In this document: in pieces, positions 1,019 through 64,000 of the stretch
Layout: every line of letters starts with the position of its first letter
Numbering within the stretch: position 1 is the stretch's first letter
Source of the DNA: Rugalucina vietnamica
Taxonomy: Eukaryota > Mollusca > Bivalvia > Lucinida > Lucinidae
NCBI GenBank assembly: GCA_964017185.1
Contig: OZ024884.1
Span: 15,412,048 to 15,476,047 of the forward strand
Direction of reading: 5' to 3'
Length of the DNA stretch: 64,000 nt
The notes under the pieces: generated by a model
Databases searched by the model: none
What the model was told of the DNA's origin: nothing
What the model saw: only the letters and a program-made list of their open reading frames with translations
Position numbers and translations under genes: made by a program

Positions 1019-2822
1019 TCACAGAAAACGGACTCCGTGCTCCGTTAAAGAAATTTTGTGTCGGCCTTTCAGGTCACGTGAGGAGGCTGAAATCGCGTAG
1101 AGAAAAACGTAAGATTTCCATTTGTTCCCAAAGACTGTTTTAGCGAAAACAGGAGAACGTGGTTCCGGGCGCTGGACTTTTGACTTACTATTTTGTTTGT
1201 GGCGAATTCCAAACTCACGTGGTTTCAGTGTATAAATCAGTTGTGCCGTCGGGTTAATAAAGGCCAATTTGTGTGATGACTGCAAACATTTTATCGTTGT
1301 TCCCGTTTAAAAGATTGTAATATATATGAGTGTTTCGATTGTCCAAATATATGAATTTCTCCGCATGCGAAATATTCAAATGAAATGAAAATAACGAAAA
1401 TGGAGCAAAAATAAACAATGGCTCCGTCCATATCGTATTGCTCTGTTAATATCGGCTGGCTCTGATGTATGAGGGTGAAATAACCACATATACATTTAAA
1501 AGCGACACAGACAATATAGTATTATTACACTGATTTCTAACCAGAACTTATCAACATATGCGTGGCTTTTCTACAAAGTTTTGAGACACATGGATTGCAT
1601 GTTTTCTCAAACGCATTAGTAGTATTAATTGTGTGCTGATCAAACAGACTGCCAAATTGGAAGCTTCAGATTTAGTTTGTGAAAATTGACCTGCTTCGGT
1701 TAAGCCTATTTATTAGCCTAGATTTACTGTATTTAGCATATGTATTTTATGACAGAAATTTGAATGTAAAATATGCAATAAATGGCAACTTTCGTAACAC
1801 CTGCTCTAGCGCTTTGCACCGGCGTAACAGTGTTTAAAACGCTACTGATTTAAAACGGATGCATCCAGCAGTACTAAAATTGGAACCCTATTTCCCGAAG
1901 GACAACCTCTTAGTATCAAGTCACTCAGATCGTTGTCTCCGTTCAAATCGCCAGAGCCCAAAAGAATGCGATCGGACGTTCGACCTCAACGACTGCCATC
2001 ATCACCAAGTCCTTTCATAGTATCATCTATTAATCTATCCCGAGCGTACGCTTACATATTCTACTCTACGAAAGATTCGTCTTTAATTGACCACCAGAGT
2101 TCGTTGGAAGAGGGAGAAAAACTTCGAAATGACATTGTAATGACAGCCGCTTCTCAAGAGACCAACCATTACTCATGACAAATGTTGATTTGCTACTGCT
2201 TTGCGTTTGAGAAAACATGCTAAGCCTTGTGTCTCAAAACTTTGCTGACAGCCCACGCATATGTTGATAAGTACTGGTAAGAAATCATATTAGTGAATAT
2301 TGTCTGTGGCGCTTCTAAATGTTTCTGTGGTTATTTCACCCTTATATATCGGAGCAGCCGTTATTGACAGAGCCAGCCGATATGGACGGAGCCATTGTTT
2401 ATTTTTACTCCATTTTCGTTATTTTCATTTCATTTGAATTTTTGCACGTGGAGAAGGTAACACAATAAATTTCATTCATTTGGACAATCAAAACACCCTG
2501 ATTAGTATCTTTTAAACAGGAACAGCCATGAAATGCTTGTAGTAATTATACAAATTGAAATTCGTTTACACGACGACAAAATTGATTTGTACAAAACAAT
2601 GTGCAGTTTGGAATTCGCCGCAAACAAAAGATAATCGCCCGTAACCACATTCTCATTTTTTCGATAAACAATAAATTAAAACAAACTTTGACAACAAATG
2701 GAAAACGATTTTTCTCCGCAATTTAAGTTGATATGATATGGCGCCACACTTGACCAGAAAGGCCGACACAAGATTTCATTAACGGAGCCAATGGCTCCGA
2801 TTGCGAAGTTTCCTCACCCTGA
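1019..2822. mobile_element. Foldback element 1 with about 600-bp imperfect inverted arms
   Basis: Sequence at 1029-1615 returns as reverse complement at 2190-2815. Matching landmarks are TTGTGTCGGCCTTTC against GAAAGGCCGACACAAG, the TCGGCTGGCTCTG block, and the GTTTTCTCAAACGCA block next to the spacer. The arms have diverged by roughly 15-20 percent and by small indels. The spacer (about 1620-2185) holds the 110-codon open frame. No transposase was found. Confidence 0.75.
1849..2178 (+). CDS. Unidentified 110-codon open frame between foldback arms
   Basis: The open frame runs from 1849 to a TGA at 2178 and reads, in part, GTLFPEGQPLSIKSLRSLSP, KSPEPKRMRSDVRPQRLPSS and EEGEKLRNDIVMTAASQE. It is Ser/Pro/Arg-rich with SP-type phosphorylation-like sites, as in a disordered protein tail. 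There is no credible ATG at the start, so if real it would be a 3' exon or a captured exon. It sits exactly in the spacer between the two inverted arms of the 1.8-kb foldback, so it may be cargo of that element. No family was recognised. Confidence 0.25.
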   Translation, partial: FKTDASSSTKIGTLFPEGQPLSIKSLRSLSPFKSPEPKRMRSDVRPQRLPSSPSPFIVSSINLSRAYAYIFYSTKDSSLIDHQSSLEEGEKLRNDIVMTAASQETNHYS

Positions 2823-3427
2823 TCATAATCAAATAATATATATTCAAACACGTCAAAATTGGGTCTGGAATAAATATGAAATGAAGTTTCTTCGGAAAAG
2901 ATAGCTATTCATATGGAACGCCAAAGCTGTCTAGTGGTAAGGAATAAAAACATTTGATTAATCGTCGTCATTATATCCTGCTCACATTTGATTATATGTT
3001 GTATAGTGTGCATTATACATGTATAATGAGAAAAGTCCATTATATGCTGGACCAGGTTCTTTATATTATTAAAATTTTCATTATACGAGTACGTTTGATG
3101 AGTAAACATCTTTATATTATGGTAGACTTACATTATATGATGAGTAAACATCTTTATATTATGGTAGTCTTACATTATATGCTGATACAACCTCATTATA
3201 TTATGTATGTTTCTCATTATATTATGGGCTATTGTCCTTATATGCATCAAGTTGATTATATGGTTCGATAACTTCATTATATGTGCAAACTTCATTATAT
3301 GCGCAAACTTCATTATAATTTTTATTATGATGTAACAACTACATTATTTGCGAGAAGAAGAATTACATTGACACCGTTTAGAGAGTTATTGTATACATGC
3401 CGGGACTACCGGACATACTGCTGATTC

Positions 3428-3428
3428 A

Positions 3429-3510
<82 letters not shown>
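3428..3510 (+). repeat. (ATCT)n microsatellite, left arm
   Basis: About 20 uninterrupted ATCT repeats, complementary to the AGAT array at 4233-4298. Confidence 0.97.
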
Positions 3511-4099
3511 ATATCTTCATCATGATCGATCATCATCATGGTCGATCATCATGATCGATCATCATCCAGATCTATCATCATCATCATGATCGATCATCAT
3601 GGTCGATCATCGTCATTGTCGATCATCATCATAATCACCATGACTTATCTTGATTTACGATGTTGATCAATCATGATTATCATAATGATGATAGATCATG
3701 ATGATTTAGATAGATCATGATGATGATCACGATCTACTACCATCATCATCATCATCATTATGATCTATCTAAATCATCATGATCATCATGATCGATCATC
3801 ATCAATAATCAAGATAGATCATAATGATTATGATGATGATCGATTATGATGATGATCGACATGGATGATGATGGTGATCGATGATGGTCGATGATGATTA
3901 TGATCGATCATCATCATCTTGATCGACGATGATGATCGATCATGATTATGATCGATCATGATGACGATGATCGATCGTCATGGTGTTGATCGATGATGAT
4001 GATGATCGATCATAATGATCGATGATGGTGATGATGATGTTCGATGATGATGGTGATAATGATGATGATGCTGATGTTCAATTGATGATGATGATGATA

Positions 4100-9135: not shown

Positions 9136-11590
9136 CAGAAGGTGGACAAAAGTATTCGTCGCGTTTGTAAAACTCCATTGACTTCAATGTATTTTCATGT
9201 TTGCTAGAAAAATTATCCTGCTTCTCCTAGTTAACGTATTTGAATGTTTTTGGTGTCATTTGAAAGGTAAATAAATAAAGCAATAAACAAGATATTTTCA
9301 TTTAATTTCATGCATGCGTTTTCAAGCTACAAATTTTTAAAAAGTTGTGAAATATTTTTTGACAATTTTTGGGCGACGTCACCATTGACGTCAATGGGAA
9401 ATTGACTTTTTCAAAATTTCCTGAAACTTTAAACTGTTGCTTTTGAAAAATGCAATGTCGGATTTTCGTCAAATGACCTTTGTTTATTGCCTTATTTATT
9501 TATGCTACAAGATAATTGTATCCTTGGACTAAAATCGAAATAAAAGTGGGGAGTCACCGGCCTCGTTTCCATGGTATCAGAACTTTTTGGATGTTTCTCA
9601 TGCATTTCAGAAAACAGCACTCGTAGCGGACATGTGTTTTAATATATATGTTTTTACTGCACAAACAACTTAAACACACGATGAGTGTTATTTCCTTACA
9701 TTTTGATACTATTTGCTCTTAAATTGAGGAGACTACGTGCAAAATTAACTTTCCCGCCATCTTTTCAAACCTGGAAAAAGTACGTATTTTTGCGATATCT
9801 CCTAAACTACGCATATGATTTTGATTAAATTTCACCAAGAGATAGGAAACGTGGTAACCATTTGAAAGTTCAAATAAAAAGTGGGGGTCGCCGGTTTGCT
9901 TTGGAAGATATAGAGAAAAAACGTTCAATATTCCCGCCTTTTTCGTTTTAACGCCAAACGTTACACTGTCGTCGCGTATATTTATGCGACGTCATCAACT
10001 GTTACAGCGAAATAAACTTTTTCACATATAATTAACCTTATACACGAATTTGGGTATATCAATTGCCACAGAATTTCTTTAAAAATAAAAAAATAACAAT
10101 ATGTATACCCGCTTTACACTCCTACATCCATCGCCAAAAAACAGCTCCAATGGAGCTGGCATGATTGGGCAATAAATCTCGGAAAATATCTTGTAGCTTT
10201 CAACTTTTATTATCATTATCAGTAAACTGTGAAAATAACAAGAGCAACAGTCTCCAGACGTCTGATATCAGATTTCTTCAGTTTTTTTTTCTTCTCATTT
10301 GGACCATGTTGAGTTAGAAATGTCATATTTCGAGCCTGTGGGTACGAATATATATGGGTACTCACAATTGTGGGTATTCAAAATTTGGGAGCACTTTTGC
10401 TATGTTTTGGAACATTTTATACTTTTTTCTAAAATTTTGGGCAGTTAAAATTTGTGGTCTTCAATTTTTTTGGTACTCAAAATATGTGGGTATTCAAAGT
10501 GTGGATGATCAAATTTTGTAGGCACTCAAAATTAGTGGCAATCAGAAGATAGATATTTCAGTTAGATGTTATTCACATAAAGATGCGGCTCTCAAAATAT
10601 TTATGAGTCTTCAAATTTGAGTGTATTTAAAATAAGTGGGTATTCAAAAGTGCATATAAATATTTTGGGGTATTGAAAATGTGGGAAATTATATTTTCTT
10701 GTTACACAAAGCATGGGCAAATTATGTTGGTCTTCACTATAAGAATGTTCACAAAATTCAATCACAAAATTGTGGGTATTCAAAATAAGCTGGTTCATAA
10801 AATTATGAGTCAAGACTGAAATTGTTTGTATGAAACTGGTGTGGTCTTAGGGTACTCATGGAATCTTTGTGTTCATGTTATTTGTATGTACATGTATTCA
10901 TCAATTATAGAATTTCACTCAGTATTTGTGGGTACTCAACATGTGGGTACCTAAAATAGTTTGGTAAAAATGCGGAAAGTATGCACATTCATATGAACTG
11001 AAAGTCTCAGTATGGAAAATTGCCACCTTAATGTTTTATAGACTCAGATCAGTGTATCATTTAGTTTGATCAGACACTGTATCCATAGTCTAATATTGAG
11101 ACAAAGAGTAAATTGGAAGTTAATGGCATATTTCATCTAATTCTTTAAACAAACAGGTGGCCAGAGTCAAGAACTCATTATCTTTATCTAACTGCTGTGA
11201 AAAAATTATCTTCTTGTAAGAATTTATTGTGACAGCCTTAATGATTAGAAAAACCAGCAAAAACTCTGAAAACTGGCGATAGATGTAGGAGTGTTTAGGA
11301 CTTAATTATGCAGAAACAAACAGTATAAGATTTTACAGCTTGCAACGTCATTGAGAAATCAAAACAAAACGGCGTTAAAAACTACGCGTAACATGCAGAT
11401 ACTAAACGCCGACGTTGTGCAAACAGTGTGCTCATAAACAATAGTAATGTTTACCCTTAACTTTCAAATGACACCAAAATCATGAAAATATGTTGACCAG
11501 AAGAGGCAGGATAATGTTTCTTGTAAACATGAAAATACATTGAAGTCTATGGAGTTTTCAAAAGTGACGAATACTTTTGTCCACCTTCTG
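9136..11590. mobile_element. Tc1-type TIR element, non-autonomous, 2.46 kb
   Basis: The left end CAGAAGGTGGACAAAAGTAT and the right-end complement agree over about 130 bp, and a TA flanks each side (9134-9135, 11591-11592). The TIR resembles those of Tc1/mariner elements. No transposase frame was seen. A second inverted pair inside (ACTCCTACATCCATCGCCA at about 10,120 and its complement at about 11,275) suggests nesting. Confidence 0.8.
10325..10960. repeat. Degenerate GTGGGTATTCAAAA repeats
   Basis: Variants of TGTGGGTATTCAAAAT recur every 20-40 bp with no clean unit. Looks like an ancient minisatellite inside the Tc1-type element. Confidence 0.6.
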
Positions 11591-53495: not shown

Positions 53496-54714
53496 GTAAT
53501 GGGTCTAGATTTTACGGATGTTTCAGAACTTGGGACCTGGGCGACATTGGATACAAACACGAATGGAGATCGATCTTTACGAACGAAGACCTGAGGTATA
53601 AAATCCCAATTTCGGATTTGGATCAGCTGGCTAACCTGCACTCCGATTCATTTAGTGACCTTGCTCCTCTTCCAAGAGGTCTAACGGAATTCCGTCCATG
53701 TCTGGTCGATTAAAATTGACATGTTATCGAGGCTTTTAATTCGACTTCTAGGTACCTCGATGACAGCAGGTATCACAGCATAAGTGGACACCGCACTTTC
53801 CCACAAAAAAATAGGAAAAGTGGGGTAAAGTGCGGTCAGTTAGATAAGAGGTTGTACACAGTTTGTGGCCAAGCTTCATGCACTGGTACTGCTATGCCAT
53901 TACTTATGAAATAAATCGCTATGTACTAAACTTATAAAACGAACCTGCACATTACATCTAGCCTCGTTTCTAATTGTACTTAAAGTGAATACGATAATGG
54001 CGTTTCCTCATTTATTGTTGATGTTTCTTTATTATAAAGGAGAGAAATAAGACATCGATATGCACATTGTATAGTGAGCAGAAAGTTGTTGATGAAACAA
54101 GATATTAACAAGTAATAACATAAAACCGCATCATAAAAGTGCAAATGCATTTCTTTGAAATCCGTTGTTAATTTGATGCTGTGCACATCCAATACCACAA
54201 CAACTAATGCATTTTAAACGACAGAGAAATTATTGATAAAGAACCATAAATATATTGAATAACATAAATATTTGGTACCTAAAGAAAAACCTGTATAATT
54301 CCCATCTTTGACACCAAAAAAGGCAAACTACCAATACAACAAACAAACAGGTTTTATAAGGTGTTATATATATGATATTAGGACATTGAGTTTGATCATT
54401 GTTGGAGTCGGTAATAATAAATTATTGTGAATCTCGGATGGATCTCCCTCGTCGTATGTATCACGCATAGTGTATTTAATTGGCTACAGACAGTAACTAT
54501 TTGCTTCGTCCTTCATTTGTATATCATCTCCATGTACAAAACAATACTTTTTCCATGAGACAACTCAAACAGAAGATTAAAAAGCATTATACTATCGTTG
54601 TATTCATTATGTAAGAAACGTTCAGTGTGCAACTTAATTTACTCTGGTATTTGCGAAAACAGTTCACATTTGTACATGTAGGTAGTCACATGTAACTTAC
54701 AGAGTCGTCGGAAG

Positions 54715-54968
54715 GGCTCAGTAAATAAATACCTCCTTATACCCCACATTTATATAGCAAAACTGGGGTTTACAGGGGTAAACCTATTTTTTCTTATTTT
54801 TGCTCTCAAAAATAGGCTGTAGGTACTCGTTAGAACCGCCTAAAGAGGCGGTACTAATGTGAACCCATAATCTATGTTTTGAGCATTATATAAAAAATAT
54901 CAGCTGAATTTTTCAATTTTAAATGAATAAAATATGTATATATATTGCATGGGCGTGTTTTCGTAATG
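54715..54968 (+). mobile_element. Family A MITE (duplication copy 1)
   Basis: Counterpart of 61912-62161; R end GGGCGTGTTTTCGTAATG. Confidence 0.85.
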
Positions 54969-55556
54969 GGGTTATCAGCAGTAAACACTCTAACACAATC
55001 ATGAATGATTTTGCACCACAAACAAGTAACTTCTCTTTCTGAAAATGGCTGAAAAATCTGCCAAATAGCATTGGTCAGACTTGAAATGGAACTTTTGTTT
55101 TCAATACAACATCCATCTTGTGCGCAATATCAAGTTGATGACAAGTTCAGAAGATTTCTACAACATAAGTTATGCTTTGTTCCATCTTGCTTGGTGTTCA
55201 AATTGTAAATTGCCTCCGACAAGAGAATTTAAGGCACCATAACTTGTCAAAATTTAGTTAGTTATAAGAGTTTTGACATCAACTAATGGGACAACAATTT
55301 TTAAAATGTCTGTCTCTGCAGGAAAGAATGTGATTTATTTTATACACCATAATGCCATTTTGAGCACACTTCGGAGATGACACATAATAAGCATGTTTCG
55401 TTTAACGGTACAGACGTTGTTTTTCACAAATTTCCTATATCGAGCTTGTTTATACTATTATAGTGGTTTCATTTGTTTTGTAATTTAGTATCAAGGTGTT
55501 GTGTTGTTGGCACCATTTATTTGCGTTCATGTTATAGATATAATATACTGATTTTG

Positions 55557-55678
55557 CTTCAAGTACATAGCTTTGTAAATCAGTCCATAGATTCAATGAC
55601 CTTTCATCCTTAGGGATGTGAAAGGCCGGGACGAAAGATCACTCAGACTATATTAATTTACAAAACCATGTACTTAAG
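55557..55678. repeat. Short inverted-repeat element
   Basis: CAAGTACATAGCTTTGTAAAT and ATTTACAAAACCATGTACTT are inverted. The copy 2 counterpart is at 62,759-62,882, where the TRIM landed at its right edge. Confidence 0.7.
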
Positions 55679-55925
55679 CAAAAATTATTTGATTATCTGT
55701 TTTATCCTATAGGCTGTAAGATCCCAACCAGCCTGCTACAACTGTGCGGTTGATATGTGTCTTTGTCTTACTGTAACTGTATAAATAGTGCTGTTTATAA
55801 GATAAGTCTTGCTGTGACACAGCTTTGTTTTTCAAATTTTGACACTTGCGGTGGTTATGGGTAATAAACCACATCATGAAAAAGGCACCTCTGCAAATCA
55901 ATAATGTAAATGTATAATATGATCA
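55664..55925. repeat. Family B-related satellite-like unit 1
   Basis: Contains ACTGTAACTGTATAAATA and GGTAATAAACCACATCATGA; related to the units at 55,955, 56,335, 63,290 and 63,550. Confidence 0.7.
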
Positions 55926-55954
55926 GCAGTTCAAAACCATACATTTAAAGCAAA

Positions 55955-56610
55955 CAAGATTTGATCATCAGTTGATTTTTTTCCGCTGTATGATCCAGAT
56001 CAGCTTGTTACATACGTGCAGTTGATCAATGTCTTTGTCTTTCTGTAACAGTTACTGTAAAAATACTAATGTTCATTAACACAAGTTTTGTTGTGAAACA
56101 GCTGTTTCAAACTTTTATGTATTGGGTATTAAGCCACATCATGAGAGAGGGGTCTCTGTAAGTGTATTATGTGATAGCAGCACTCGGCAGTGCAAATTAA
56201 CTTGCAGTGATAGGACTTTTTAGTACAAACTAAAGATTGAGATCAGCTTTGTGACAACAGTGCAGTTTATCGATATATTTGTTTTCATTGTACGGGAAGA
56301 TAGACTTTGTTGTATCATGGCACTCATGAACAAGAGTTGATCATCAGTTGATTTTTTCCGCTGTATGATCCAGATCAGCTTGTTATATATGTGCAGTTGA
56401 TCAATGTCTTTGTCTTTCTGTAACAGTTACTGTAAAAAATACTAATGTTCATTAACACAAGTTTTGTTGTGAAACAGCTGTTTCAAACTTTTATGTATTG
56501 GGTATTAAGCCACATCATGAGAGAGGCGTCTCTGTAAGTGTATTATGTGATAGCAGCAATCGGCAGTGCAAATTAAGTTGCAGTGATAGGACTTTTTAGT
56601 ACAAACTAAA
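55955..56610. repeat. Two near-identical units of about 280 bp
   Basis: 55,960-56,240 and 56,335-56,612 repeat GATCATCAGTTGATTTTTTC through GGACTTTTTAGTACAAACTA with only a few differences. Confidence 0.9.
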
Positions 56611-59908: not shown

Positions 59909-60221
59909 GTAATGGGTCTAGAATTTACGGATGTTTCAGAGCTTGGGACCTGGGGCGACATTGGATACAAACACAAATGGAGATCGAGCTTTACGAACGA
60001 AGACCTGAGGTATAAAATCCCAATTTCGGATTTGGATTAGCTGGCTAACCTGCACTCTGATTCATTTAGTGACCTTGCTCCTCTTCCAAGAGGTCTAACG
60101 GAATTCCGTCCATGTCTGGTCGATTAAAATTGACATGTTATCGAGGCTTTTAATTCGACTTCTAGGTACCTCGATGACAGCAGGTATCACAGCATAAGTG
60201 GACACCGCACTTTCCCACAAA

Positions 60222-60584
60222 AAGGTACAAGTAGGCAAAGATCAGGAAAAGGCGCAATCAGAAAAAGATTCCCACTCCAAAAACCGAGGTGGGAAAAAAC
60301 CAAACCAACAATCAGGTACTTATACCATGAAACATATCGTAAGCCGAATGAGCAGCTATTTTCCCAATAGGTGGCCACTCAGTTACCTTAACTTAACTAA
60401 AATTATGAAAACACACATAAGGCGCCAACAGCACAAAAAAGTTTTTAAACACCAAGACATAAAACAAAAAGAACCACCACAGAAGTATCGACTTGGAACG
60501 ATCAGTAACACAAAGTTACTGGCGGGCTTAAACCGATTTTACATGGCCATAACCTCACCCTCAGCTTCCGCAGTGGTTCAGTGA
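60222..60584 (-). mobile_element. RT retroelement 3' tail inserted in duplication copy 2
   Basis: Absent from the matching place in copy 1 (53,806). Runs AGGTACAAGTAGGCAAAG to CCGCAGTGGTTCA. Confidence 0.92.
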
Positions 60585-61001
60585 TATACAAGAAATAAGA
60601 AAAAACATATTAAGAAAGTAATAAACATAGATACCAACGTTTAACATGGAAAACGGAAAGCAGGGTGAGCAGCTATTGAAGGTATTAGGTGGTCACAGTG
60701 CTAGCTTGGACAGAACAAGTAAAATGCAGAGGGCTAAGTGAACAGCCAAATTATAATCGGGTGGCCACAAAGCCATGCAACATGAAACTCGTAATAGGAA
60801 TAACTTTGATAAGTGTGAACCACAACAGTAGTACCGCCTTGGAACGGTCAGTTATAAATAACTGGGGGGCTTAAACCGGTTTTACATGGCCATAACCTCA
60901 CCCTCAGCTTCTGCAGTGGTTCATAACATTTAGTTAGTTATTCGGTCCTCGTGGTGAATCTCTAACTAGTCAATGAATCATCAAGATTCATTGACTAGTT
61001 A
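60585..61001 (-). mobile_element. Second RT retroelement tail segment with snap-back 5' end
   Basis: Repeats the CCACAACAGTAGTACCGCC to GGTGAATCTCTAACTAGTCA part of the tail after 230 bp of other sequence. It ends with a hairpin, AACTAGTCAATGAATC / GATTCATTGACTAGTT, at 60,970-61,001. Confidence 0.8.
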
Positions 61002-61911
61002 AGTGGGGTAAAGTGCGGTCAGTTAGATATTAAGAGGTTGTACACAGTATGTGGCCAAGCTTCATGCACTGGTACTGCTATTCCATTACTTATGAAACAA
61101 ATCGCTATGTACTAAACTTATAAAACGAACCTGCACATTACATCTAGCCTCGTTTCTAATTGTACTTAAAGTGAATACGATAATGGCGTTTCCTCGTCTA
61201 TTGTTGATGTTTCTTTATTATAAAGGAGAGAAATAAGACATCGATATGCACATTGTAAAGTGAGCAGAAAGTTGTTGATGAAACAAGATATTAACAAGTA
61301 ATAACATAAAACCGCATCATAAAAGTGCAAATGCATTTCTTTGAAATCCGTTGTAAATTAGATGCTGTGCACATCCAATACCACAACAACTAATGCATTA
61401 TAAACGACAGAGAAATAATTGATAAAGAACCATAAATATATTGAATAACATATTTGGTACCAATAGAAAAACCTGCACAATTCCCATCTTTGACACCCAA
61501 AAAGGCACACTACCAATACAACCAACAGACAGGTTTTACAAGGTGTTATATACATGATATAAGAACATTGAGTTTGATCATTGTTGGAGTCGGTAATAAT
61601 AAATTATTGTGAAACTCGGATGGATCTCCCTCGTCGCATGTATCACGCATAGTGTATTTAATTGGCTACAGACCGTAACTATTTGCTTCGTCCTTCATTT
61701 GTATATCATCTCCATGTACGAAACAATACTTTTTTCCATGAGGCAACTCAAACAGAAGATTAAAAAGCATTATAATATCGTTGTATTCATTATGTAAGAA
61801 AAGTTCAGTGTGTCACTTATTTTTACTCTGGTATTTGCGAAAATAGCTCACAGTTGTACATGTAGGTAGTCACAAGTAACTTACAGAGTCGTCGGAAGGG
61901 CTCAGTAAATA

Positions 61912-62161
61912 AATACCTCCTTATACCCCACATTTATATAGCAAAACTGGGGTTTACAGGGGTAAACCTATTTTTTCTTATTTTTGCTCTAAAACATAGG
62001 CTGTAGGTACTCGTTAGAACCGCCTTGAAAAGGCGGTACTAATGTTTTCAAGGCGGTACTAATGTGTACCCATAATCTATGTTTTGAGCAATATAGCTGA
62101 ATTTTTCAATTTTAAATCAATAAAATATCTATATATATTGCATGGGCGTGTTTTCGTAATG
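61912..62161 (+). mobile_element. Family A MITE (duplication copy 2)
   Basis: Counterpart of 54715-54968. The core has an extra tandem AGGCGGTACTAATG unit. Confidence 0.85.
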
Positions 62162-62882
62162 GGGTTATCTGCAGTAAACACCCTAACACAATCATGAATG
62201 ATTTTGCACCATAAACAAGTAACTTCTCTTTCTGAAAATGGCTGATAAATCTGCAAAGTAGCATTGGCGAGACTTGAAATGGAACTTTGTTTTAAATACA
62301 ACATCCATCTTGTGCGCAATATTAAGTTGATGACAAGTTCAGAGGATTTCTACATCATAAGTTATGCTTTGTTCCATCTTGCTCGGTGTTCAAATTGTAA
62401 ATTGCCTCCGACAAGAAAATTTAAGGCACCATAACTTGTCAAAATTTAGTTAGTTATAAGAGTTTTGACATCAACTAATGGGACAACAATATTTGAAATG
62501 TCTGTCTCTGCAGGAAAGAATGTGATTTAATATATACACTTTAAGCATGATGCTATTTTGAGCACACTTCGGAGAGGACATATAAGCATGTTTCGTTTAA
62601 CGATGCAAACCCCGTTTTTTCACAAATTGCCTATATCGAGTTTGATTATACTACTATAGTGGCTCCATTGGTTTTGTAATTTAGTATTGAGGTGTTGTGC
62701 TGTTGGCACAATTTATGTGCGTTCATGTTATAGATAATCAACCGTTGAACTGATTTTGCTTCGAGTGCATAGTTTTGTAAATCAGTCCATAGTTTCAATG
62801 TCCTTTCATCCACAGGAATGTGAAAGGCCGGGACGAAAGATCAATCAAACTATTGATTAATTTACAAAACTCTGTACTCAAG

Positions 62883-63035
62883 TGTCACAGGGTATAGGTA
62901 TATAGCACACTTGTACTGCCTTGCGCAGGGGCGGAAAAAGAACGTGGCCCGACCGGGACTCGAACCCAGGGTCTCTCGCTTACCGTGCGAGCACTCTACC
63001 ACTAAGCTACCGAGCCACTCGATCGACCGGTTACA
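62883..63035 (-). repeat. 3' LTR of the TRIM (153 bp, with 38-bp extra segment)
   Basis: Identical to the 5' LTR except for one C/T difference in the A box and an additional stretch at about 62,891-62,928 near its end, bordered by repeated CAGGG. Confidence 0.83.
62945..63016 (-). ncRNA. tRNA-like cloverleaf in the 3' LTR
   Basis: Same as the 5' copy with A box TAGCTTAGTGG. Confidence 0.82.
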
Positions 63036-63047
63036 TTTTCCCCCTGC
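63036..63047 (-). promoter_or_regulatory. Polypurine tract of the TRIM
   Basis: GCAGGGGGAAAA lies directly before the 3' LTR. Confidence 0.75.
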
Positions 63048-63132
63048 TTAATTAGATTCGTCCCCGAATCTGCTCTGAACCATGCCGGAACCGACGAGAC
63101 AGTCCCTTTGCTGCTCGCAGCCCGAGCACGGA

Positions 63133-63148
63133 CCCACACTGGCCACCA
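63133..63148 (-). promoter_or_regulatory. Primer-binding site of the TRIM
   Basis: TGGTGGCCAGTG two bases after the 5' LTR complements a tRNA 3' end CACTGGCCACCA. The SINE head at about 21,950 ends in CACTGGCCAC, so the primer tRNA may be the same one that founded the SINE. Confidence 0.65.
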
Positions 63149-63150
63149 AA

Positions 63151-63265
63151 TGTCACAGGGGCGGAAAAAGAACGTGGCCCGACCGGGACTCGAACCCAGG
63201 GTCTCTCGCTTACCGTGCGAGCACTCTACCACTGAGCTACCGAGCCACTCGATCGACCGGTTACA
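63151..63265 (-). repeat. 5' LTR of the TRIM (115 bp)
   Basis: Begins TGTAACCGG and ends CTGTGACA, giving TG..CA termini. Almost all of it is tRNA-like. Confidence 0.85.
63175..63246 (-). ncRNA. tRNA-like cloverleaf in the 5' LTR
   Basis: Folds as acceptor GGCTCGG/TCGGGCC, D arm GCTC/GAGT, anticodon arm CTCGC/GCGAG and T arm CTGGG/CCCGG with loop TTCGAGT. A box TAGCTCAGTGG and B box GGTTCGAGTCC fit the Pol III consensus. The anticodon loop ACGGTAA has C in place of the universal T33 and a GGT anticodon unusual for animals, so I call it tRNA-like, not a working tRNA. Confidence 0.82.
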
Positions 63266-63289
63266 CAAGCACAAATAAGATGCTTATCT

Positions 63290-63756
63290 GTTTTATTCCA
63301 TAGACTGTAAGATCCCGATCAGCATGTTACATCTGTGCAGTTGATCAGTGTCTTTGTCGTACTGTAACTGTATAAATAGTACTATTTTAAGACAAGTTTT
63401 GTTGTGACACTGCTTTGTTTTTTTTTTAAATTTTGACACTTCCGGTGGTACATGTAATGGGTAATAATCCACATCATGAAAAAGGCACCTCTGTAAATCA
63501 GTAATGTGAATGTATAATATGATAAGCAGTGCAAAACCCTACACTTGAAGCAAACATCAGTTGATTATCAGTTGAATCTTTTTCCGCTGTAAGATCCAGA
63601 TCAGCTTGTTACGTCTGTGCAGTTGATCAGTGTCTTTGTCTTACTGTAACTGTATGAATACTACTGTTCATTAACACAAGTTTTGTTGTGAAACAGCTGT
63701 TTTCAAATTTGGACATTTCTGTATTGGGTAATAAGCCACATCATGAGAAGGGCGCC
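63290..63756. repeat. Two diverged units of the same satellite-like repeat
   Basis: Units at about 63,290 and 63,550 share GATCAGCTTGTTAC, GTGCAGTTGATCAGTGTC and a terminal CCACATCATGAGAA, which recalls the family B terminus. Confidence 0.8.
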
Positions 63757-64000
63757 TCTGAGAAAGAAGCCCCCTTTTTAGATCTACATCTTTCTGTTGC
63801 AAATGGATTTGTTTCTTCTAAAATTTATGATAAGCGCGATGATTTTGATTTTGATATAGTAAATTTTCCGTTTTTGGATGGTGACGTTCCTCGTCGTGCT
63901 TCTTATGGTGTATACATTTCGCAACTTATTAGGTTTGCTAGAGTCTGCAATCATGTTACAGACTTCAACGCTCGAAATAAATCTTTAACGGCCAAACTTC
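63757..64000 (+). pseudogene. Reverse-transcriptase fragment, cut by window edge
   Basis: An open frame of 81 codons reads KEAPFLDLHLSVANGFVSSK, IYDKRDDFDFDIVNFPFLDG, SYGVYISQLIRFARVCNHV and onward to the end of the window. The FLDL-x-I/L motif sits where RT motif 6 lies in Penelope-like and related reverse transcriptases, and the family is the same as the C-terminal fragment at 33,885. No stop is present in the visible part, so the element could be intact beyond the window. Its 5' part is missing: the frame begins directly after satellite-like sequence at about 63,755, so this copy is probably 5' truncated. Confidence 0.72.

Follow-up and report, generated by a model that had tools for sequence, protein, structure and literature searches.

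A recombinant Helenus-kind TRIM with tRNA-like LTRs in Rugalucina vietnamica, and composite insertions that point to a likely Gypsy helper

The window, a 64,000-nucleotide stretch of the R. vietnamica genome (C16:15412048-15476047), contains at positions 62883-63265 a 383-bp TRIM, i.e. a short gene-less LTR retrotransposon, on the minus strand. Its LTRs contain tRNA-like sequence, and it belongs to the Helenus kind of TRIMs. We are confident in an overall reading in which this element would use a cycle of Pol III transcription and passage through Gypsy particles, the window copy is a recombinant, and a Gypsy element designated Gypsy-G, or a close relative, is the likely helper. The tRNA-LTR kind of TRIM is already known; what is of interest here is the recombinant window copy together with a set of composite insertions that point to the helper. 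No report of Helenus-Gypsy composites was found in the literature searched, which took in few subscription journals.

Read on the minus strand, the window element begins with a 115-bp 5′ LTR (63151-63265; TGTAACC..GTGACA), followed by a 115-bp internal region that encodes no protein (63036-63150). The primer-binding site (PBS), TGGTGGCCAGTGTGGG (63133-63148), is a perfect 16-nt complement of the 3′ end of the genome's tRNA-Ile(AAT) with CCA, and the polypurine tract (PPT), AGGGGGAAAA (63036-63045), abuts the upstream side of the 3′ LTR. We refer to this family as family A. The 3′ LTR (62926-63035) consists of positions 1-110 of 115, its last 5 nt being replaced by the opening 43 bp of an LTR from another family, family B; this piece is fused to it in inverted orientation (62883-62925, plus strand) and was recognized from identical 43-mers that head family B LTRs. 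The 110-bp repeat pair within the unit is 99% identical, and the target site duplication CAAG lies on both sides of the unit (62879-62882 and 63266-63269). The TG..CA ends, 4-bp target duplication, PBS and PPT described in the first-pass annotation of this DNA were all present. Its bounds of 62883-63265 do enclose a single insert, but 62883-62925 is not family A LTR sequence, and the reading strand is minus.

A local segmental duplication within the window (53818-56158 / 61001-63760) holds an empty counterpart of the insertion site in two stretches that are 92% and 84% identical. Positions 53818-55678 matched 61001-62882 at 91.6%, and 55676-56158 matched 63267-63760 at 83.8%. The duplicate neighbourhood near 55675 is without exactly the 383-bp insert; the empty target site reads TAAG (55675-55678) and bounds the entire unit. 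These two matches bear out the earlier claim of an empty site in a paralogous duplication. As the target duplication and the empty site both lie outside the 43-bp family B piece, we conclude that this piece and the A element entered the chromosome as one unit. The same neighbourhood contains a short dispersed repeat (61907-62091) with an internal inverted repeat (61991-62031 / 62045-62085); this repeat has more than 20 partial copies within the window and is MITE-like in appearance.

Both LTRs contain tRNA-like sequence on the minus strand that ARAGORN called as tRNA-Thr GGT, at 63174-63246 in the 5′ LTR and at 62944-63016 in the 3′ LTR; the tRNA-like parts themselves are placed at 63175-63246 and 62945-63016. 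The corresponding scores with Rfam RF00005 were 58.5 and 57.2 bits, respectively, where the gathering score of the tRNA model is 29. These calls and scores substantiate the proposal that each LTR carries a tRNA cloverleaf with A and B boxes. The A box reads TAGCTCAGTGG in the 5′ LTR (63229-63239) and TAGCTTAGTGG in the 3′ LTR (62999-63009), and the B box reads GGTTCGAGTCC in both (63186-63196 and 62956-62966). Past the tRNA-like part is a TTTTT run in each LTR (63165-63169 and 62935-62939), all of these features being on the minus strand. In coordinates of the 5′ LTR the A box, B box and T run occupy positions 27-37, 70-80 and 97-101, with matching places in the 3′ LTR, and both boxes were also found in the majority LTR of 25 copies. 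The T run in the 5′ LTR is a possible Pol III terminator and, judged from its sequence, would be expected to end many Pol III transcripts within the 5′ LTR. An Rfam scan of 60001-64000 identified tRNA where the LTRs lie but no 5S rRNA. A retrozyme reading was rejected, as the same scan gave no hammerhead match in this interval at E up to 5.

The base preceding the anticodon of the tRNA-like part is C rather than T. U33 is near-invariant among working tRNAs, and Thr-GGT is not known to be used by eukaryotes; for these two reasons the tRNA-Thr-like part is probably a promoter rather than a working tRNA. Counts of tRNA-Thr genes in Helenus-bearing genomes may be inflated by LTRs. The full tRNA gene scores of both units would also suit two ordinary tRNA-Thr genes that lie in tandem and had been duplicated together. 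This explanation is exceedingly improbable given the C before the anticodon, the 4-bp duplications, the empty site and the hundreds of dispersed places at which the LTR/PBS junction was found. A tandem tRNA gene pair conserved in place, which had been named as the outcome that would overturn the element, is ruled out by the last two of these observations.

Family A copies were collected by a search of the 1.09-Gb genome in which 40 of 1087 candidates were scored, giving at least 60 matches. The 40 spans comprise 38 extracted loci, a second unit in one of these (L013) and the window. Among the genome matches listed, the recurring unit corresponds to query positions 44-383 only. The LTR-internal-LTR order was found in all 38 loci, with parts shortened or repeated in some of them, although this order was partly selected for because the loci are the best matches to the whole unit. 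Single two-LTR copies measure 342-357 bp, and tandem arrays also occur, e.g. in L011 and L014. The LTR/PBS junction was present at 302 places genome-wide (up to 2 mismatches) and the reversed pattern at none; this recurrence is not due to chance. Exact 4-bp duplications flank 24 of the 40 spans (22 before manual adjustment of the ends of L015, L034 and L040), compared with 14 of 1560 mismatched flank pairs (0.9%) that agree at 4 bp. Four of the 16 spans without an exact duplication (two in L013 and one each in L015 and L020) are parts of composites that end further out. Thus, other copies do show the LTR-internal-LTR structure and target duplications that the first-pass annotation had proposed to look for. 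For the solo LTRs that it also proposed to look for, 528 LTR ends against 302 LTR/PBS junctions (both at up to 2 mismatches), counted with patterns of unequal length, give no clear excess. As an observation apart, the flank of the A copy in L042 contains an adjoining array of short tRNA-like repeats (CACTGAGCTATCCGGGCGCC) at about 1800-1960.

In 25 simple two-LTR copies selected from the 40 spans, the LTRs differed at a mean of 3.08 positions within a copy versus 4.59 between copies, and none of 5000 permutations gave a within-copy value as low. This result bears on whether the unit could be a SINE dimer moved by a LINE, with no LTR element involved. Such a dimer would share the tRNA-like promoter and the small size of SINEs, but it is a very unlikely source of LTR pairs that are closer within than between copies, of TG..CA ends and 4-bp duplications, or of a PBS beside the 5′ repeat and a PPT beside the 3′ repeat. 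The LTR structure, PBS, PPT and 4-bp duplications likewise distinguish family A from SINEs in general. The copies, duplications and empty site uphold the description of the unit as a miniature LTR retroelement whose LTRs are tRNA-like and which is an animal counterpart of Cassandra.

Family B has a 149-bp tRNA-like LTR and a 117-bp internal region, and L028 contains a copy with both LTRs. The initial 43 bp of the B LTR occur at 215 places genome-wide (up to 3 mismatches), of which those in L020, L028, L034, L047-L078, L088 and the window were inspected. The B piece is cut at 42-44 not only in the window but also in L051, in L034, where the A internal region follows, and in L078, where an inverted B PBS and LTR follow; the 43-mer search is blind to shorter B pieces, so that the 42-44 cut is not a measured hotspot. 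A TATATA motif has its first base 27 bp upstream of the 43/44 point of the B LTR, and this point, which also coincides with the edge of an inverted-repeat loop, may correspond to the U3/R boundary of family B. L075 was considered as another broken family B LTR and rejected; it is an ordinary insertion within the LTR with its own GTACAA duplication.

The outer ends of seven composites, which combine different families or include inverted parts, are marked by exact 4-bp duplications. These composites are the window copy (A + B; CAAG), L013 (A + Gypsy-G + inverted A; TTGA), L015 (Gypsy-G LTR + 10 nt of PBS + A; ATTC), L020 (B LTR + A; GTCG), L034 (B + A; CTGT), L078 (B + inverted B; TTTG) and L087 (Gypsy-G LTR + a tRNA-Lys-like 20-nt run + inverted and direct A; TTCA). 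As these seven are bounded by exact duplications, A, B and Gypsy-G were probably reverse-transcribed together. The seven duplications and the empty site are our main grounds for inferring that the composites were produced by template switching within shared particles. No target duplication was found at the outer ends of a further B + A composite in L028. In L088 an A LTR is joined to an inverted B, and its right outer end falls beyond the extracted stretch, so this case is not decisive. L077 was not counted: its B LTRs, arranged head to head, lie in a GATA repeat, and a duplication there carries no weight. Elsewhere, two opposed Gypsy-G LTR pieces were noted about 10 kb apart (C2:5947514-5948146, plus strand, and C2:5958516-5959155, minus strand), possibly another inverted composite.

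Nested insertion followed by later deletion or recombination is another way in which the composites, the window copy included, could have arisen after integration rather than by template switching before it. Tandem arrays such as L011 and L014 can form by inter-LTR recombination, and the lack of a duplication at L028 is in keeping with such a history. We nevertheless regard this origin as unlikely, given that exact duplications lie at the outer ends of different families or opposite orientations in all seven composites, that the empty site in the paralogous duplication delimits the window unit as a whole, and that PBS or tRNA 3′-end sequence is present at several junctions (L013, L015, L052, L078 and L087).

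The primers and junctions were compared through the tRNA genes of the same genome. The tRNA-Ile(AAT) gene in L085, with CCA added, gives the expected PBS TGGTGGCCAGTGTGGGGG, which the window PBS matches over 16 nt. Self-priming by the LTR's own tRNA-like part was rejected, its 3′ end giving an 8-nt run versus 16 nt for tRNA-Ile. The 38 loci and the window contain 51 A-type PBS sites. Of these, 17 match tRNA-Ile over 16-20 nt, the longest match being 20 nt in L038, and three over 10-14 nt; the other 31 have a 7-nt match due to one extra T. The family B PBS, TGGCGCCCAACGTG, fits tRNA-Lys rather than tRNA-Ile, matching the tRNA-Lys(CTT) gene in L089 over 14 nt; on this basis family B may use a helper other than that of A.

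Two junctions contain tRNA-like runs. A 20-nt run in L087 matches the tRNA-Lys 3′ end and a 22-nt run preceding a B LTR in L052 matches the tRNA-Ile 3′ end, in both cases with the CCA, which is not encoded by the tRNA genes read (L089 and L085). These runs may be copies of primer tRNA. The PBS of other elements could be an alternative source; the L052 run is only 2 nt longer than the most extended A-type PBS match, and at the L013 junction the PBS of A fits as well as the tRNA does.

The Gypsy body to which an A array is joined in L013 has reverse transcriptase, RNase H and integrase domains as well as a PNMA-type gag; the gag and pol frames of the Gypsy of the composites are open. An ordinary 11.7-kb copy of Gypsy-G is present at C14:51297337-51309048; its own LTRs agree at all 291 bp compared, and it has a PPT and a CAGG duplication. 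Its PBS, TGGTGGCCAGTGT, recurs in two further Gypsy-G copies (L083 and L084). Because composites join A to B and to Gypsy-G, and because the Gypsy-G PBS shares 13 nt with that of A, Gypsy-G or a close relative is likely to be the helper of A, as judged from a comparison with Gypsy-G alone. Alternatively, A could be mobilised by a different Gypsy, with Gypsy-G merely sharing a particle at times. We give this appreciable, though lesser, credence: A and Gypsy-G had no common sequence outside the PBS in the parts compared, and the match of the Gypsy-G PBS to tRNA-Ile ends at 13 nt, but Gypsy-G parts occur in three composites (L013, L015 and L087). Two further features of L013 were noted. A 535-bp direct repeat (2629-3163 and 3241-3775; 99.8%) lies inside the Gypsy-G 3′ LTR, and a 25-nt stretch on the minus strand, TTTTGGTTCCCAACGTGGGCCACTG, directly follows the A array at 9253 and separates LTR A from the Gypsy-G body. 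The latter had no match in the other Gypsy-G copies found and fits neither the tRNA-Ile nor the tRNA-Lys tested.

In the cycle that we propose with Gypsy-G or a close relative as helper, Pol III would transcribe A from the tRNA-like A and B boxes and the RNA would enter a Gypsy particle. There tRNA-Ile, which matches the PBS, would prime reverse transcription, and the Gypsy integrase would insert the DNA, an event that leaves the 4-bp duplication observed. The window copy would be a recombinant cDNA in which the 3′ LTR end was extended with a piece of B LTR during reverse transcription, presumably by template switching, and the duplication and empty site support integration of the fused A-B DNA in one step. 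More broadly, we lean towards the view that the two tRNA-LTR TRIM families, with tRNA-Ile and tRNA-Lys PBS, and a Gypsy were repeatedly co-packed, their reverse transcripts fusing in particles. With the same measured preference we suggest that the fusions often fell at PBS or tRNA 3′-end sequence or 42-44 bp into the B LTR.

The first-pass annotation was wrong to regard tRNA-LTR elements in molluscs as undescribed. Helenus, the name given by Kojima (2024; PMC10886601) to TRIMs with tRNA-derived LTRs, includes 51 families in pteriomorph bivalves, and seven bivalve families can encode a tRNA-Thr. According to that paper, Helenus elements measure 311 to 1263 bp and have a PBS, a PPT and, in animals, 4-bp duplications. 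Every feature tested in family A fits this description, the assignment being to the kind rather than to a named family. Both A LTRs contain tRNA-derived sequence with the A and B boxes that are conserved in Helenus, and the window element and its two-LTR copies lie within the Helenus size range and encode no protein. The PBS and PPT stand between the LTRs, although 31 of 51 sites have an imperfect PBS, the animal-type target duplication is exact in 24 of 40 spans, and the tRNA-like part of the LTR is not the primer of its own PBS (8 versus 16 nt), as in Helenus. Pol III transcription, predicted for A from its boxes, is left undecided in the portion of PMC10886601 available, which also does not include composites or a link through fused units to one defined Gypsy, both features of A.

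Plant Cassandra resembles A in that a small-RNA gene provides the Pol III promoter of its LTR, but that gene is 5S rRNA rather than tRNA (PMC10886601). The bivalve biv-TRIM (PMC6934838) resembles A in its solo repeats and tandem arrays. It differs in that its authors did not identify a canonical PBS, and tRNA-like terminal repeats are not reported in the available part of that description, on which the comparison with A is based. Complex insertions in Triticeae (Sabot and Schulman 2007, PMC1950507) are likewise fused elements that arose by template switching during reverse transcription and were inserted as one unit; these are plant elements, and tRNA-LTR TRIMs are not mentioned in the part of that paper available.

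Mobilisation of animal Helenus by Gypsy was inferred from PBS similarity, and no helper was given for Cassandra, in the available portion of PMC10886601. If our reading is correct, integrated fused cDNAs reveal directly which helper an animal Helenus uses, something beyond the reach of PBS similarity by itself. Units in which Helenus is joined to another tRNA-LTR family and to a defined Gypsy within single duplications are physical evidence for a shared reverse-transcription complex, and they bear on the recruitment of helpers by gene-less TRIMs that have Pol III promoters. Such fused units can be searched for in every Helenus-bearing genome. Finally, a tRNA-Lys-like 25-mer, GCCCGGATAGCTCAGTCGGTAGCGC (e.g. 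C1:9511369-9511393), occurred at many dispersed places among the 100 matches listed. The pattern has 321 places at up to 3 mismatches, tRNA genes included, and is possibly a further SINE or Helenus-like family.
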